A stretch of 64,000 nt of DNA, taken from contig CANMPL010000005.1 of assembly GCA_947499715.1 (NCBI GenBank), positions 62,001 through 126,000 of the forward strand, in the 5' to 3' direction. Every line of letters begins with the position of its first letter. The stretch's first letter is position 1. The DNA comes from an uncultured Paracoccaceae bacterium (lineage in GTDB: Bacteria; Pseudomonadota; Alphaproteobacteria; Rhodobacterales; Rhodobacteraceae). Of the stretch, positions 2,031 to 47,937 are shown one piece after another. The translations under genes and the position numbers were made by a program. The notes beneath the pieces were generated by a model, which saw only the letters and a program-made list of their open reading frames with translations, did no database searches and had not been told where the DNA came from.

Positions 2031-2870
2031 ATGAAATGGCAAGGACGCCGGGGTAGTCGGAATGTGCAGCGCCGCGGTGGCGGTGCGAAATCGGTGGGTG
2101 GGATCGGCGGGATCGCCGGTGTCTTGATCTTGCTTGCGGGCTGGTACTTTGGATTTGATACCAGCGGCTTTGTCGATCTGGGCGGGCAGGGCGGCAGCCA
2201 AAGCGCCGAAGTCACCGAGGCCGATCTGCAGGCAGAACAATTCGTATCCGTGGTGCTGGCCGACACAGAAGAGGTCTGGGCCGAGGTGCTGCCGCAGCAG
2301 GCGGGGATTACCTATAACGAGCCTACGCTGGTTGTGTTCAAAGGGTCGGTGCAATCGGCCTGTGGCGGGGCCTCTGCCGCGTCGGGGCCGTTTTACTGCC
2401 CGGCGGACAAGGTCGCTTATCTCGATACCGGATTCTTCACCACGATGTCAGAACGGCTTGGGGCGGGCGGTGATTTCGCGGCGGCCTATGTGGTGGCCCA
2501 CGAGGTGGCCCACCACGTGCAGAACGAATTGGGCATTCTGGGGCAGGTCAATCAGTTGCGCGCACAGGTGACCGAAGAGCAATCCAATGAGCTGTCGGTG
2601 CGCACAGAGTTGCAGGCGGATTGCTTTTCAGGGATCTGGGCCCGCAAGGCACAAGAGATGTTTGGATCGCTGGAACGCGGCGACATTGAAGAGGCGCTGA
2701 ATGCGGCCAAGCAAATTGGTGACGACACCTTGCAGCGCAATGCAGGTCAGACGGTGCAGCCGCATACCTTTACCCATGGCACCTCTGCCCAACGTCAGCG
2801 CTGGTTCGCGCGGGGGCTGGAAAGCGGCGACATGAGTCAGTGTGATACGTTTTCAACCAACCAGCTTTGA
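2031..2870 (+). CDS. Neutral zinc metallopeptidase, YpfJ family
   Basis: This 279-residue protein begins at ATG 2031 (MKWQGRRGSRNVQRR). A short basic N-terminus precedes one membrane helix (about 26-44, IAGVLILLAGWYFGF). The large exported part carries HEVAHH (His157, Glu158, His161), the HExxH zinc-binding motif of the putative neutral zinc metallopeptidase family (ypfJ-type), and a downstream ELQADCFSGIWA segment, the conserved block in which an acidic residue serves as a further ligand. It is predicted to sit in the inner membrane facing the periplasm. The substrate is unknown. It stands alone, just upstream of tRNA-Leu. Confidence 0.88.
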   Translation: MKWQGRRGSRNVQRRGGGAKSVGGIGGIAGVLILLAGWYFGFDTSGFVDLGGQGGSQSAEVTEADLQAEQFVSVVLADTEEVWAEVLPQQAGITYNEPTLVVFKGSVQSACGGASAASGPFYCPADKVAYLDTGFFTTMSERLGAGGDFAAAYVVAHEVAHHVQNELGILGQVNQLRAQVTEEQSNELSVRTELQADCFSGIWARKAQEMFGSLERGDIEEALNAAKQIGDDTLQRNAGQTVQPHTFTHGTSAQRQRWFARGLESGDMSQCDTFSTNQL

Positions 2871-2914
2871 GGCCGTTGACGCCGCCCGCGGCCTGTCTTA
2901 GGAGGGTGCCGTTG

Positions 2915-3000
2915 GCCGATGTGGCGGAATGGTAGACGCAGGGGATTCAAAATCCCCCGATGGTAACATCGTGAGAGTTCGAGTCTCTCCATCGGCACCA
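2915..3000 (+). tRNA. tRNA-Leu (anticodon CAA)
   Basis: The acceptor arms GCCGATG (2915-2921) and CATCGGC (2990-2996) pair perfectly, and discriminator A and CCA are encoded (2997-3000). The anticodon stem GGGGA/TCCCC encloses loop TTCAAAA, giving anticodon CAA. A long variable arm (CGATGGTAACATCG) is expected for a class II leucine tRNA, and the T-arm contains GTTCGAGTC. Confidence 0.97.
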
Positions 3001-3649
3001 ACACTATCCTGAAAACCCTGCCTTATTCCTGTCCGAATCGGACCGAGAAGCCGCAAATTGGCGGTTCTATTGTTGCCGATTTGTAGACCATTGGCCCGAG
3101 CAGCGATGTTTGTGTCGGATCGTTCAACAGAATTGCCGGGGGATTTGGGAATCGTGGCCTGATTTGGGCATCAACGTTAACACCGCGAAATTGACCGCCG
3201 CCGCAGAACAAAACAGGGGTGGATTCGCCCAAATGCGCGGTTTTTGGCGCATTTTATGGTCAATTCTGAAACAGTTTAGTGTTTGTCGTTTCCAAACTGG
3301 AAACAATGCCTGCGGCAGATCGTATCGGGATTTTGTTCAATCCACTGAAATTGAAGAGATTGTGTCAGATATGACGTCGAAGGACAGATTTTTCCCTTTG
3401 AGGGTAACGTCTGGTTAGGTATGTCGGAGATGCCCAACTGGGGGGCGCACTGGTCGATTGGGGCGATCAGGGTCAGATCTTCGGATTTGATGAACGTGTG
3501 TGATGTCTGCAATTGGGTCGATCCCAGCAGCTCTTAGAATTTAAGTCGGTGCGTGGCACCGGCGGCCGAACCTGTGCCGCGTTGCGCGGTGCAGCGAAGG
3601 TATGTGCAAAGTAAAGCGACGTGTGTGCGTTGTCGACGAGGAGACGAAG
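3001..3649. other. Long non-coding leader before the giant RTX gene
   Basis: About 650 bases without a convincing gene. Composition is visibly richer in A+T than the neighbours. An AAATGCGC/GCGCATTT hairpin (3231-3238 and 3247-3254, loop GGTTTTTG) lies in the middle. The open frame at 3110-3418 lacks a ribosome site and recognisable protein features. The segment probably holds the promoter and control region of the RTX/Hint gene; no specific promoter can be defended. Confidence 0.5.
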
Positions 3650-6600
3650 ATGTCATTAACAATTGATTGGGACCAGATTGGTTCAGACGGTAGCCAGACA
3701 TTGTCCGAAAACGGACAGTCGGTTGATGTCACGGTCTCTACGCCGAAAAATGCACAGGGCAAGGAATGGTTCGTCGAGAACGGCATGCTCAAGAACTGGG
3801 ATGTCACGACAGACAGTAATGTCGACGTACGTTTCAGCGAAGAAGTTGAGAACGTCAAATTCACCCTGCTGGATGTCGACGCGCTGGATGAAATCACGAT
3901 CATGACCAAGGATGCGGACGGCAACATTGTTCCCGTCGAATTCGAGGTGACAGGCAATCATTACGTGGATGGCAACGTCGTGACGGGCACGTCCACAACG
4001 ACAAACGGCCCCGGCATGGATGACGGCAGCCAGGACATCGAAATCTGCATTCCCGGCCCAGTGATGACGTTCTGGGTCGTGCTGGATGACGGCCCCGCGC
4101 GCGATTATTCCGGCACTGTGGCGATCAGCGATGTGACCTTTGACATCTATGCGCCGCTTGATGGCACGGTTGAAGGCACGGCTGGTGATGATCTGATCGA
4201 CGCAAACTACGATCAGGATCCAGACGGTGACAAGATCGACAACAACGATGCAATCGTCGCGGGCGAAGGTCCGCAGGACGATATCGTTGTTGCAGGCGAC
4301 GGCAATGACACGGTTGTGGCTGGTGAAGGCGACGACGACGTGCAGGGCGAAGCTGGCGATGACAAGATTTACGGTGGCGAGGGCGATGATGAGCTGAGCG
4401 GCGGTATCGGCAACGACATGGTCTTTGGCGGCAACAACAGTGATGTGATCAATGGCGGTGACGGCGACGATATGCTGATCGGCGCTGGTCCGTCTTTTGA
4501 TGGCAAGATCGACTTTAACGATCTGAGCGCTGGCGACATCGTCGGTGGCCAGTATGCAGGTAATGGCGTGACCATTTCCAGCGGCATCGCGGGCAAGCCT
4601 GTGATGATCTTTGACACTGCCAACCCAACTGGTGGCGACCATGATCTGGCGACCAGCAATCTGGGCAATGTGCTGATCATGTCCGAAGATGGTGACAGCA
4701 GCGACCCTGACGACAACGCCGGTGGTGCGCATTTCGTCTTTACCTTTGACAGCCCAGCCCATGTTGAGAGCCTTGATTTCCTCGACATCGAAGGCGGTGC
4801 ATGGATCAAGCTATATGATGCAGACGGCAACCAGATTGCGCTGATTGATCCTGCCCAAACCGGCGACAACGGCCAGTTGAGCCAGCACATCGGTGTGGAT
4901 GGCGTGGCCCGCATGGAAGTGATCATCGCCGGTTCCGGCGCGATTGATAACCTGTGCTACAGCCTGAACGGTGAAACCGGCGACGAAGCTGATGTGATCA
5001 ACGGCGGTGCCGGCAATGATTACATCGAAGGCAATCTGGGCAATGACAGCCTTGATGGCGGGACCGGCAACGATGAGCTGTATGGCGGCGAAGGTGATGA
5101 CCGGATCTTTGGCAACGACGGTGACGACGTTGGCTATGGCGGTGCTGGCAACGACAACATGGGCGGCTCGGACCGGGGCAACGACGAATACTACGGCGGT
5201 GCTGGCGACGACATGATGGAGACATCATACGGCGACGACACGCTTTATGGTGGCGAAGGCAATGACAACCTTTGGGCCTCTGCTGATGACGATCTGGTCT
5301 ATGGTGGCAAGGGCGACGACAGCGCCTATGGCGGCCACGGTCAGGACACTGTTTTTGGCGAGATGGGCGATGACACCCTGTCTGGTGGTTCGGACAGCGA
5401 CACCATCTTTGGTGGCAGCGGCAATGACGTCATTGATGGCGACAAGCTGTACAAGGACGACAAGGGCGCGGCGGGCGATGACACCATCTATGGTGGCGGC
5501 GGTGACGACAAGATCGACGGTGGTGGCGGCAACGACACGCTGATCGGTGACGGCGGCCCGGCGGAAGAGATCGACTTTACCATTGATTGGGACGTACTGG
5601 GCTCTGACGGTTCGGCCACATTCACCGAGTGTGAAAAGGACGTGACGGTTTCGATCAACACGCCGCAGAATGCGCAAGGCAAGCAGTGGTTTGTCGAAAA
5701 CGGCATGCTGAAGAACTGGGATGTCACCGATCCGACAACGGCGGATCTGCATTTCGACCAGGAAGTCACCAACGTGCAGTTTACGCTGCTTGACGTTGAT
5801 GCGCTCGACAAGATCACGATCATGGCGAAGGACGCGGACGGGAACCTTGTTGAGGTTCAGTTCGAAGACACCGGCGTGCATGCGGTTGACGGCAACATGG
5901 TCACCGGCACCCAGACCAACAATCCCGGCCCGGGTGAAGACAACTCTGGTCAGGATGTGGGTGTGACCATCGCAGGTCCGATCCAGCATTTGTGGATCAT
6001 TCTCGATGACGGACCCGCACGGGACTATTCCGGCACTGTGGCTGTTACCGACATCACCTTTACCCTGCCAATGGTGCAGGAAGACGGCGATGACATGATC
6101 GACGGCGGTGACGGCGACGACTACATCGAAGGCAACGGCGGCGACGATATGCTGACCGGTGGCGCTGGCAATGACGAGATCTACGGCGGCGACGATCGTG
6201 ACACCATCATTGGTGGTGCGGGCGACACTGTTGACGGTGGCGCCGGTGGCGACGATTACGACGTGCTGGACCTGACAGGTCAGGGGCCATTTGTGGTCAC
6301 AGGCCCCGATGGTACAGGCGATCCGATCCCTGACAGCAATGGCAATGGTCTTGACGGCCAGGTTCAGTTCATCGACGCCGATGGCAACCCAACCGGCGAA
6401 GTGATCGACTTTACCGAGATCGAAGAGATCATTGGTGATCTGGTCGAAAACCGCGGCCCTGATGCGGTTGACGATGATTACACCGCGGGCGAAGACGACG
6501 CGCCTGCTGATATCGGGAATGTGCTGGACAACGACACCGATCTGGATGGCGACACGCTGACGGTTGGTGAAGTGAACGGTGATCCGGCTGGTGTTGGCAC

Positions 6601-42801: not shown

Positions 42802-42811
42802 CCGGTCGGCG

Positions 42812-44008
42812 CTATTCTCTTTTGCGTTTGCTACTATCCGCGCCACCCGGCGATCCCCCCAGCGCTGCGGCAGCAACTGCGGTTGCCGCGGCACCCGCGG
42901 TCGCCGCGCCGGGCACATCCTCGCCATTGAAGAAGCGGCGCAGAACATCCACCGCCACCCGGATTTCGCCGCGCATGACCTGATCTGTCGACATCGGATA
43001 GAAATGGGTGAGCGTCGTGCGCCCGTTACACGTCACTTCGTAGTTTATCATCATCGCAAGATGCGTGCCGGGATACATCGTGGCCGAAACACAGACCTCA
43101 AAGACCATATTGTCACGTTCGGCCAGCCGCTTGATTGCATCCTCAAGCGTAATCATCGCCGTGTTGCAATCATATGTTCCGGCAACAAGATTGCCGGGAA
43201 CCTGAGGATTTCCAAAGATTCCGCCCATCTTGAAAGAACAAAGATGAAGCCATTCCCACTGCTTGGGTTCCCCGTTCAGTAAGTCGGTTTGCACCTGCGC
43301 CATGATGGCCGCGTCCTTGGCGCTACATTTCATCACGCTGTTTTGGGGCGTCGCATTCTTGCGATTGATCCGCGCCCAATGGCGCACGCGGGCGCGGTCG
43401 ATGGTTTGGACGCCTGTCGTCTTGCGGATCACCGGTTTGGGGCATCCAAAGGGGTTCAGCGCAAGGCCAAAAGACACGGTCGGGACGCGGGCCGCCATGC
43501 GTCCGGGCTGAAACATCTGCAATTCAGGGGGCGGCAAGGCGTTTGCAGCACCGCCCGGGGCGCCCGCGTCATCATCCAGCAGCTTGGCCCGTTTGCCAGC
43601 CGGTGGCACGGTCGCCGTAGGATCGTGCGCTGCCGCAGCCGCACTGGCAGCGCCACCTGAACTGGGCCCGGCAGCGGCTGCGCCGGTGTCGCTAAAAGTG
43701 CCCACCACATTGCCCAATTTCAGAAAAGCGCCGGGACCGGCATCGACCTTGCGCCGCCCACCAAAGGATTGCACCGACTTGGCAGTGTGCGCGGCGGCAA
43801 TCCTTGGATAGGCCCGATCAAGATAAATGTGAAAGCCTTGTTGGCGGGCTTCGTGTCGCTCTGCCAACGTAAAATTACCCCGAACATGTCGGCGCCACAG
43901 ATCGGCCCATGCGGCCAACACCTCGCTATAATTTGTAGGCGCTTCGCCTTTGCCACGTTCAAGACGCATCATCGACTGAATGAGCGCCCAAAATTCATCA
44001 TCATCCAT
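42812..44008 (-). CDS. Nuclease-like protein with NLS-like basic motifs
   Basis: This 398-residue protein starts at ATG 44008 behind AAAAGG. No family is certain. Residues 252-292 (WEWLHLCSFKMGG, then NLVAGTYDCNTAMITLE) follow the H-x6-GG ... NLV-x-GT-x3-N pattern of DNA/RNA non-specific (His-Me finger) nucleases, with His255 and Asn282 as candidate catalytic and metal residues. Residues 106-160 and 365-392 are Ala/Gly-rich linkers. Two basic clusters, PPAGKRAKLLDDD (135-147) and SSKRKRE at the end, resemble nuclear-localisation signals, the first close to the c-Myc type. There is no signal peptide. An effector or toxin is possible; this is inference. Confidence 0.6.
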   Translation of the reverse strand: MDDDEFWALIQSMMRLERGKGEAPTNYSEVLAAWADLWRRHVRGNFTLAERHEARQQGFHIYLDRAYPRIAAAHTAKSVQSFGGRRKVDAGPGAFLKLGNVVGTFSDTGAAAAGPSSGGAASAAAAAHDPTATVPPAGKRAKLLDDDAGAPGGAANALPPPELQMFQPGRMAARVPTVSFGLALNPFGCPKPVIRKTTGVQTIDRARVRHWARINRKNATPQNSVMKCSAKDAAIMAQVQTDLLNGEPKQWEWLHLCSFKMGGIFGNPQVPGNLVAGTYDCNTAMITLEDAIKRLAERDNMVFEVCVSATMYPGTHLAMMINYEVTCNGRTTLTHFYPMSTDQVMRGEIRVAVDVLRRFFNGEDVPGAATAGAAATAVAAAALGGSPGGADSSKRKRE

Positions 44009-44041
44009 CCTGATCGCCTTTTAATTGTATGCACGCCTCAA

Positions 44042-44070
44042 GTTACACCTATAACGGCGCATAATGTCAA
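44042..44070 (-). promoter_or_regulatory. Candidate promoter of the nuclease-like gene
   Basis: On the minus strand TTGACA (44070-44065) and TGTAAC (44047-44042) are spaced by 17 bases, 34 bases before the start codon. The -35 is perfect, the -10 matches four of six. Confidence 0.45.
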
Positions 44071-44114
44071 AGGCCGTTGGCCCTAAACCCCACAGATCGC
44101 GCGAAAATCAGGGC

Positions 44115-44143
44115 TTGTCAGCACCCACTGTCAGCGTTATGAC
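44115..44143 (+). promoter_or_regulatory. rpsB: Candidate promoter of rpsB-tsf
   Basis: TTGTCA (44115-44120) and TATGAC (44138-44143) are separated by 17 bases. The start point would lie about 110 bases before rpsB, leaving a leader long enough for S2-type autoregulation. Confidence 0.45.
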
Positions 44144-44261
44144 GCGCGCACTTAATCCCACAGGCGGGGGCGGGTGAAAGGGGGAGACATCCCTGATCAT
44201 CCACCGGTTGGGCCACATGGTCTAATTCCCCGCTGAGGCTGAAACCGGAAAAGGAAAAGAC

Positions 44262-46060: not shown

Positions 46061-46131
46061 CATTGTTGCGCCCCATTTCGGTCTGTTTCGGGTCTTAGCC
46101 ATATCGGGTGAACAGCAAGGAATTTGACCAT

Positions 46132-47937
46132 ATGACTCGTATTATCGAACAAGCAGATACAGCGGACCAATTTGACTGGACCACTATCGTGACACATTTG
46201 TCAGACACCGGTGAAAAGATCCAAAGGGATTGGGAATTCGACGATGGATCGATCCGCACCGATTATTTTCAGGACGGGATCATCGCTGAAATCCGGAAAT
46301 TCGATTCGACCGATAATCCAGACGCAAACACCTGGTCCTCGATCCGTTCATACTACGACGCCAACGGCGTCTTGACGTCATCAGAAATCGTCTATGACAC
46401 CACCGTCGCCAAGATCGAGACCTTCGAAAATGGCATCCGCTCGGAAACGAGAGAGATTGATTCCTCTGTCGATCCTGACCTGAACCCCTGGGACCAGATC
46501 ACGACATATTACGACCAGAACGGCGTCATCTACGGGCGGGTGACAATCTATGATGACGCGACCACCAAGACAGACGTCTACGAAAACGGCGTGCTGTCAG
46601 AGATTAATCAAGCCGACCCCGGCAACGCGGCCGGTTGGGACACGATCAATACCTACTTTGACCCCACCGGTGTCATGGTCGCTAAAATCACCCGTGACGA
46701 CGATGGCGTTCAAACGGATGAGCTATTTGAAAACGGGATCCGGTCGGAAACCCGCCAGACGGATACGCTTAATGCCGAAACCTTCGACACGATCGAAACC
46801 TACTACGACCCCGCCGGTGTCATCGTGGCCAAGGTCACGCGCTACGACAACGGCGAAGAGATCGTGGCACTTTTTGAAAACGGCGTGCGGACCGAAATCC
46901 GTCAAACCGATAGGCAGGATGTGCGGTCCTACGATGAGATTGAGACCTATTTTGATGCAAACGGCGTGATATTGGCCAAAATCACCCGCAATGATGACGG
47001 GGTCCAGACGGACGAGCTTTATGAAAACGGCGCCCGGACCGAAACCACCCGGATCGACACGCTGGACGTCAAATCCTATGACATGCTCAGCACCTACTTT
47101 GACCAAAACGGTGATGTAATCGCCAAGTTGAGCGTCTTTGACGACGGCACCCAGAACGATCTGCTGTATGAAAACGGCGTCCGCAAGGAATTGCGCCAGA
47201 TGGATCTGGACGATGTCAAAAGCTATGACACGATCAACACCTATTATGATGCCAACGGCGACCTCTTGCAGCGCGAAACCCTCTTTGACACTGGCGTCAG
47301 CAAGTCGGAATCCTTTGAAAACGGCGTTATCCGGTCGGTCGCACTGACGGATGCCAACGATGTCAAAGGCTATGACAGTGTCACAACGACCTTTGATGCC
47401 ACCGGCGAAAAGATCGAACGCCTGACCATCTTTGACACCGGCGTGGAACGCCTTGAAGAGTTTGCCAATGGCGAACGCACCTTCACCACCGAAACGGATG
47501 TGAGCGACGTCAAAAGCTGGGCCATCAAGTCCACCCAGCACAATGCCGGAAACGGCCTTACGATCAGCTACCGCGAAGACGATAACGGCCTGACAACCTA
47601 TTCCTTTTTTCAGGACGGCAAGAAGGCACTCGTCAGTCAAGAAGATCTTGGCGACGTGTTTATCTGGCAAAGCAAGGAACAGGGCTACAACCCGGACGGC
47701 TCTCGCTCTGTGACAGAGACCGTTTTTGATACTGGTGACGTGCGTACGATTGTCTATGTCGACGGCACCGACGTGCAGGATTTCCGTATGGAACGGGACG
47801 GCGACGGGTCAGACAGCTGGGAATACAAGGTTGTGGACTTCGATCCCGATGGCGGCCCGGCTGTGACGACCTTCTATGATAGCGCCTCTGAATTGCCTTT
47901 GCCTTATTCAGACTACACCGGCTTGGTCACGGTCTAA
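46132..47937 (+). CDS. 49-residue tandem-repeat protein of unknown function
   Basis: The product has 601 residues from ATG 46132, with AAGGAA nine bases before; GTG 46108 is an in-frame alternative. It is built of about 11 repeats of 49 to 51 residues. The pattern per unit is ENGxRxExRQTD, a spacer ending in DVxSYD, xIxTYYDxNGVxxAKxTxYDDG and a linker into the next ENG. The repeat differs from MORN, RHS/YD and RTX. It is acidic and cysteine-free and lacks a Sec signal. These traits occur in type I-secreted or cytoplasmic beta-repeat proteins; neither location can be decided. The last two units are degenerate. It stands alone after the tsf terminator. Confidence 0.75.
   Translation: MTRIIEQADTADQFDWTTIVTHLSDTGEKIQRDWEFDDGSIRTDYFQDGIIAEIRKFDSTDNPDANTWSSIRSYYDANGVLTSSEIVYDTTVAKIETFENGIRSETREIDSSVDPDLNPWDQITTYYDQNGVIYGRVTIYDDATTKTDVYENGVLSEINQADPGNAAGWDTINTYFDPTGVMVAKITRDDDGVQTDELFENGIRSETRQTDTLNAETFDTIETYYDPAGVIVAKVTRYDNGEEIVALFENGVRTEIRQTDRQDVRSYDEIETYFDANGVILAKITRNDDGVQTDELYENGARTETTRIDTLDVKSYDMLSTYFDQNGDVIAKLSVFDDGTQNDLLYENGVRKELRQMDLDDVKSYDTINTYYDANGDLLQRETLFDTGVSKSESFENGVIRSVALTDANDVKGYDSVTTTFDATGEKIERLTIFDTGVERLEEFANGERTFTTETDVSDVKSWAIKSTQHNAGNGLTISYREDDNGLTTYSFFQDGKKALVSQEDLGDVFIWQSKEQGYNPDGSRSVTETVFDTGDVRTIVYVDGTDVQDFRMERDGDGSDSWEYKVVDFDPDGGPAVTTFYDSASELPLPYSDYTGLVTV
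46200..47850 (+). repeat. Tandem protein-coding repeat, 49-51 codons per unit
   Basis: About eleven units are recognised by ENG (or QDG, ANG, VDG) followed 20-25 residues later by TYYD/TYFD-x-NG. The central six units are the most alike and the ends most diverged, which suggests growth by internal unequal exchange. Confidence 0.8.

Follow-up and report, generated by a model that had tools for sequence, protein, structure and literature searches.

A putative effector-type endonuclease with a WLH variant of the DRGH/beta-beta-alpha-Me fold at a genus-variable site of an uncultured Paracoccaceae bacterium

The DNA/RNA non-specific endonucleases of the beta-beta-alpha-Me fold (PF13930, Endonuclea_NS_2), marked by a DRGH motif, include Sda1, Spd1, EndA, NucA, EssD/EsaD and EndoG; EsaD is a secreted antibacterial toxin, and EndA and EXOG show that such nucleases also work in DNA uptake and repair. 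They are the closest known counterparts of the gene described here, an orphan nuclease-toxin-like gene of 398 aa with an ATG start at 42812..44008 on the (−) strand of a 64,000-nt stretch (the window) of contig CANMPL010000005.1 from an uncultured Paracoccaceae bacterium. Unlike them, the window protein has WEWLH in the place of DRGH, a motif not found in it, and it combines a missing PF13930 match with basic clusters and Ala/Gly linkers. We favor, with a probability of about 0.7, the reading that the gene was acquired horizontally and encodes an effector-type DNA/RNA endonuclease that depends on metal and is destined for other cells, its WLH variant of the fold being undescribed. The observed parts of this reading are the predicted fold, the conserved active-site residues, the toxin-type architecture of some relatives and the genus-variable site.

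Toxins associated with extracellular contractile injection systems (eCIS) offer a second comparison. According to PMC11297309, DUF4157 is a signature domain of these toxins, 983 of 1130 predicted DUF4157 toxins show no additional annotated domain, and a DNase fusion to DUF4157 had been described before (Jana et al. 2020, as cited there). A nuclease effector of metamorphosis-associated contractile structures (MACs) kills eukaryotic cell lines, according to PMC8213781. Our protein is likened to both by description only, through a DNase joined to an N-terminal domain also found in its relatives and through the idea of an injected nuclease in eukaryotic cells; by the markers tested, its own genome differs in having no MAC-type system. 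The DNase in the earlier DUF4157 fusion is reportedly PoNe, of the PD-(D/E)xK type and hence of another fold. The likeness to nucleomodulins, bacterial effectors at work in host nuclei, lies in nuclear localization signal (NLS)-like clusters within an effector-like protein. Among titles and abstract openings on DUF4157 with nucleases, Pne1, nucleomodulins, and contractile injection with nuclear localization, neither the WLH core nor such a nucleus-addressed effector was found.

The nuclease core (residues 198–344, 42977..43417; all features of the protein lie on the [−] strand) shows the fold of the PF13930 endonucleases in its predicted structure and in profile matches, and the predicted-structure comparison by VIA-align alignment puts EsaD, EndA and EXOG in the same fold. 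WEWLH (residues 251–255, 43244..43258) is predicted to form the first strand of the beta-beta-alpha motif with the catalytic His255, and NLVAGTYDCNTAMITLE (residues 273–289, 43142..43192) the second strand and helix start, with the predicted metal-binding Asn282 and the invariant Glu289. Both putative functional positions were matched in the profile alignment to EssD and Spd1, in which we take the counterparts of His255 and Asn282 to have these active-site roles. H255 and N282 are invariant in a 44-row core alignment (A2), the rows of which were picked for WLH and found with a pattern that included N282. A first-pass annotation had proposed a His-Me-finger nuclease core with H255 as catalytic candidate, to be abandoned if no nuclease fold emerged; profile matches to the PDB and the predicted structure both returned that fold, A2 conservation agrees with it, and the EssD/Spd1 alignment together with A2 invariance supports H255. 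The motifs also lie where they had been placed: WEWLHL (H255), MGG, NLVAGT, N282, PAGKRAKLLDDD (K139) and the C-terminal SSKRKRE (K394). A match to CdvB (NF041005) was discarded at 21 bits versus a cut-off of 350.

Single-sequence searches of Pfam, NCBIfam, PADLOC, PHROGs and the PDB, of contig collections, plasmids and phages, and of 195, 394 and 398 genomes (own genome in each) gave nothing convincing. The few matches obtained, at E 4e-4 to 0.01, were discounted: three from the 195-genome search, which fall mainly on the linker by query range, two from the 394-genome search, one from the 398-genome search, and L023, which on inspection by eye is the terminal portion of a cysteinyl-tRNA synthetase. 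Relatives came from a degenerate DNA pattern for NLVxG[TS]xxxNxxMxxxE, derived from the window protein and scanned on genome_contigs; it included N, L, V, G, T/S, N, M and E and left W, L, H and GG outside. The pattern matched 64 stretches, of which 44 have WLH 14–33 residues upstream (in 40 of these GG or GP comes next), 7 resemble PF13930 proteins in having a [CA]H[LC] form, and 13 have neither, among them L078, the upstream part of which lies off the locus. A2 joins the window to 43 loci picked by eye for a visible WLH; L064, at an edge, also has WLH and stands outside. All 44 A2 stretches read open, W, L, H, N, V, G, N, M and E are invariant, M, A, E, GG, L and I are near-invariant, and 25 of the 44 cores match PF13930 at E ≤ 0.1. 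A further set (A3) holds 18 full-length relatives out of the 43. L068 is truncated at its start, and L043, L051, L053, L059, L076 and L080 are outside A3, with no usable whole open reading frame (ORF), mostly at the 220-aa floor; the full-length Pfam scan covered 17 relatives, with L032 outside. A motif scan of viral contigs gave two matches, neither inside the open frame of a relative, and neither full-length L058 against plasmids nor the L083 core against phages gave a match.

Four of the 17 full-length relatives scanned (L049, L083, L036 and L075) carry an N-terminal eCIS_core (PF13699), the same stretch that is annotated DUF4157 in plasmid records, and the N-terminal stretches of L041 and L030, which have no Pfam match, resemble eCIS-associated proteins by eye. 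For L083, matches came from 45 plasmid records; the 20 listed among them align at about residues 30–174, the eCIS_core end. Because relatives fuse eCIS_core to it and DUF4157 has a published toxin role, the WLH core is probably the toxic end of some eCIS_core/DUF4157 proteins. The family covers the unannotated C-terminal part of some eCIS_core proteins.

The gene occupies the GNAT–rpsB gap (42802..44261, 1460 bases), a variable site by comparison with five same-genus genomes. GNAT and rpsB border the gap in all five, and the nuclease gene is absent from the site in all five. The gap measures 188 bases in G001, 250 in G004 and G005, 788 in G002, with a 174-aa lipoprotein-like ORF, and 975 in G003, with an SRPBCC-like ORF (all names but GNAT given by eye); different single genes fill this small site in G002 and G003. 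Since gap contents differ among the same-genus genomes, the nuclease gene was probably gained at this variable site, its composition already host-like. Its GC content at third codon positions is 0.63 (0.61–0.74 in 20 other window genes), and its frame has the top codon fit among the six (0.658 vs 0.496–0.600). The 398-aa protein has a single match in its own genome, the gene content of which suggests a host related to the Rhodobacteraceae. A single gene, absent from the site in the compared genomes and with toxin-type relatives, fits the earlier view of an effector- or toxin-like rather than a housekeeping protein.

Upstream of the start codon stands a weak promoter-like TTGACA-17-TGTAAC (44042..44070, [−] strand). 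The first-pass promoter is thus present and weak by consensus: TGTAAC agrees with TATAAT at only 4 of 6 positions, and a stricter scan of the region gave 0 sites, TTGACA-17-TGTAAC not being counted. No second sense gene was seen in the segment, which upholds the claim that no immunity gene adjoins. The eukaryotic target once drawn from this is a weak step, because a non-specific nuclease would attack the DNA of its producer with or without an NLS; the missing neighbor would point to low expression, sequestration or inactivity, to the lack of an activator or to an unlinked inhibitor, and a eukaryotic target is not shown thereby.

Under the favored reading, the gene would have been acquired horizontally at the genus-variable site and its product would be cytosolic, without a neighboring immunity partner; His255 would activate water and Asn282 would hold a divalent metal. 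The N-terminal region (residues 1–105, 43694..44008; helical prediction at very low confidence, no convincing family match) may serve as the delivery part. The carrier would be one of the cell's contact or injection machines, most likely the type VI secretion system (T6SS), since no eCIS was found; among the four export markers searched in the own genome (eCIS_core, sheath, VipB and VirB4), it is the best candidate by elimination. VirB4 had no match in that genome, and the T6SS genes present are FHA, TssA, TssB, TssC, Hcp, TssE, TssF, TssG and a ClpV-like gene, in a scan that omitted TssJ/K/L/M and VgrG. The genome also holds a lone phage-sheath C-terminal-domain protein (PF17482, E 3.2e-15; L093:12032-13480, G000:C4), rejected as part of an eCIS or tail: no tail genes were found among the neighbors scanned, which are transporter/metabolic (peptide ABC transporter, DUF3422). 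No signal peptide was seen by eye, and a single-sequence model of the full-length protein (predicted local distance difference test score 34.5) was too poor for use.

The protein has two K[KR]x[KR] sites beyond its core: PAGKRAKLLD (residues 136–145, 43574..43603), within the Ala/Gly/Pro-rich linker (residues 106–165, 43514..43693, GC 0.717), and SSKRKRE at the C-terminus (residues 392–398, 42815..42835). At least two separate sites occurred in 1.4% of whole-protein shuffles and, with shuffling confined to the residues outside the core, in 0.4%; of the 52 greedy window ORFs, 2 have them, the window protein included. At least one site was found in 18% of shuffles and 6 of the 51 other window ORFs, and three consecutive basic residues in 39% and 13 of 51, respectively. 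The pattern P-x(1-3)-K[KR]x[KR]-[LVI], post hoc and modelled on the first-pass example, appeared in 0.5% of shuffles and in none of the 51 other ORFs. These post hoc values are suggestive of more than chance in the window protein, the only one with a shuffle value below 0.05. Similar clusters occur in two near relatives; among relatives with a site the lowest values are those of L063 (0.063; KRKRCAES and PEPKRRRLVKL) and L072 (0.080; PVSKKSKIL). Tentatively, and more weakly than the steps above, the two clusters might direct import into the nucleus of a eukaryotic target, for example an alga or a grazer, the chromatin of which would be degraded.

Several results weigh against the favored reading and its nuclear extension. 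The whole window protein (E up to 1) and its core (E up to 10) gave no match to PF13930, the protein searched alone matched no PDB nuclease, and the three PDB matches from the core profile are each weak (E 0.13–0.45); PF13930 scores printed for 5 of the 17 full-length relatives (16.8–24.4 bits) all fall below the gathering score of 27. Whereas four relatives join eCIS_core to the WLH core, the window protein has no eCIS_core match, nor does its own genome, in a scan in which no control genome passed the cut-off and which thus lacks a positive control. The nuclease gene stands outside the T6SS cluster. Finally, the basic clusters do not look like a family feature, because a K[KR]x[KR] outside the core is missing from 10 of the 18 full-length relatives and occurs at least once in the other 8. 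Those without it include L049 and L083, which both rank among the five relatives scoring highest against the window in the core alignment.

The same absence of clusters in 10 of 18 relatives, together with the T6SS genes, the polymorphic-toxin architecture among relatives and the fold shared with EsaD, speaks for a T6SS-delivered antibacterial toxin, in which the clusters would be incidental or an aid to DNA binding and the producer would be protected by an unlinked inhibitor or by inactivity. The segment lacks an adjacent immunity gene, however, the gene is not among the T6SS genes, and a pair of basic clusters, one in the linker and one in the tail, is uncommon in the window; we regard this as a real but minority possibility. 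It coincides with the favored reading in all but the nuclear step, so the odds of the two are not exclusive.

Rather less probable is that the toxin gene was acquired without its delivery module and is now stranded or silent. The genome without eCIS_core, its one weak, isolated sheath-domain gene and the weak promoter would suit it, but the 398-codon frame is intact, with a codon fit like that of its neighbors, and has kept the residues invariant in A2. An intracellular defense or DNA-uptake/housekeeping nuclease with disordered tails appears very unlikely: the absence of a visible secretion signal and the appearance of EndA and EXOG in the structure comparison agree with it, whereas the lack of a PADLOC match, the single gene, its absence from the site in all five same-genus genomes and the toxin-type relatives do not. 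Within the favored reading, we also find it doubtful that this alphaproteobacterium, free-living and of marine type, would use the nuclease as a nucleus-addressed effector injected into a eukaryotic neighbor and that a WLH branch shared with gammaproteobacteria (L063 and L072, with c-Myc- and SV40-like clusters) turned an eCIS-type toxin into a chromatin-cutting weapon. Nuclear targeting by a bacterium from the environment could be tested on the window gene.

The signature EWLH...GG...NLVxGTxxxNTxMIxxE defines a nuclease family across many bacterial phyla, caught by Pfam only below cut-off in the proteins scanned and unnamed in NCBIfam. Its record titles name Bacteroidota, Cyanobacteria, Streptomyces, Paenibacillus, Gemmataceae, Acidobacteriota, Proteobacteria and others. 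The family is sparse: a search with the A2 profile at E ≤ 0.001 drew no match from 393 further same-family genomes, and one at E ≤ 1e-5 over a phylum draw of 397 further genomes found matches in 1 (G766, 5.8e-6, L096). With branching taken without support values, L063, L072, L068 and L058 form one clade, and the window protein groups with L088 nearby. In the gammaproteobacterial metagenome-assembled genome (MAG) of L063, the WLH core is fused to an exonuclease domain (2262-4295; RNase_T, E 1e-24) with several basic clusters, and the next gene (4545-6026) encodes a TPR protein with the C-terminal end GTKRKLDLLY. A 1724-aa protein of a Methylococcales MAG (L045:1634-6808) has the WLH core within its first 350 residues and a long remainder without a Pfam match. 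The seven loci with NLVxGT...N..M...E and an upstream [CA]H[LC] (L037, L039, L050, L069, L081, L087 and L090) look like ordinary PF13930 nucleases, and their record titles name Oscillospiraceae, Clostridia, Lachnospiraceae, Solobacterium, Faecalimonas and Gordonibacter. Elsewhere in the window, after tsf, 46108-47937 encodes a 609-aa protein of repeated YYDxNG-type units, the counterparts of which (by eye) in the five same-genus genomes range from 458 to 563 aa.
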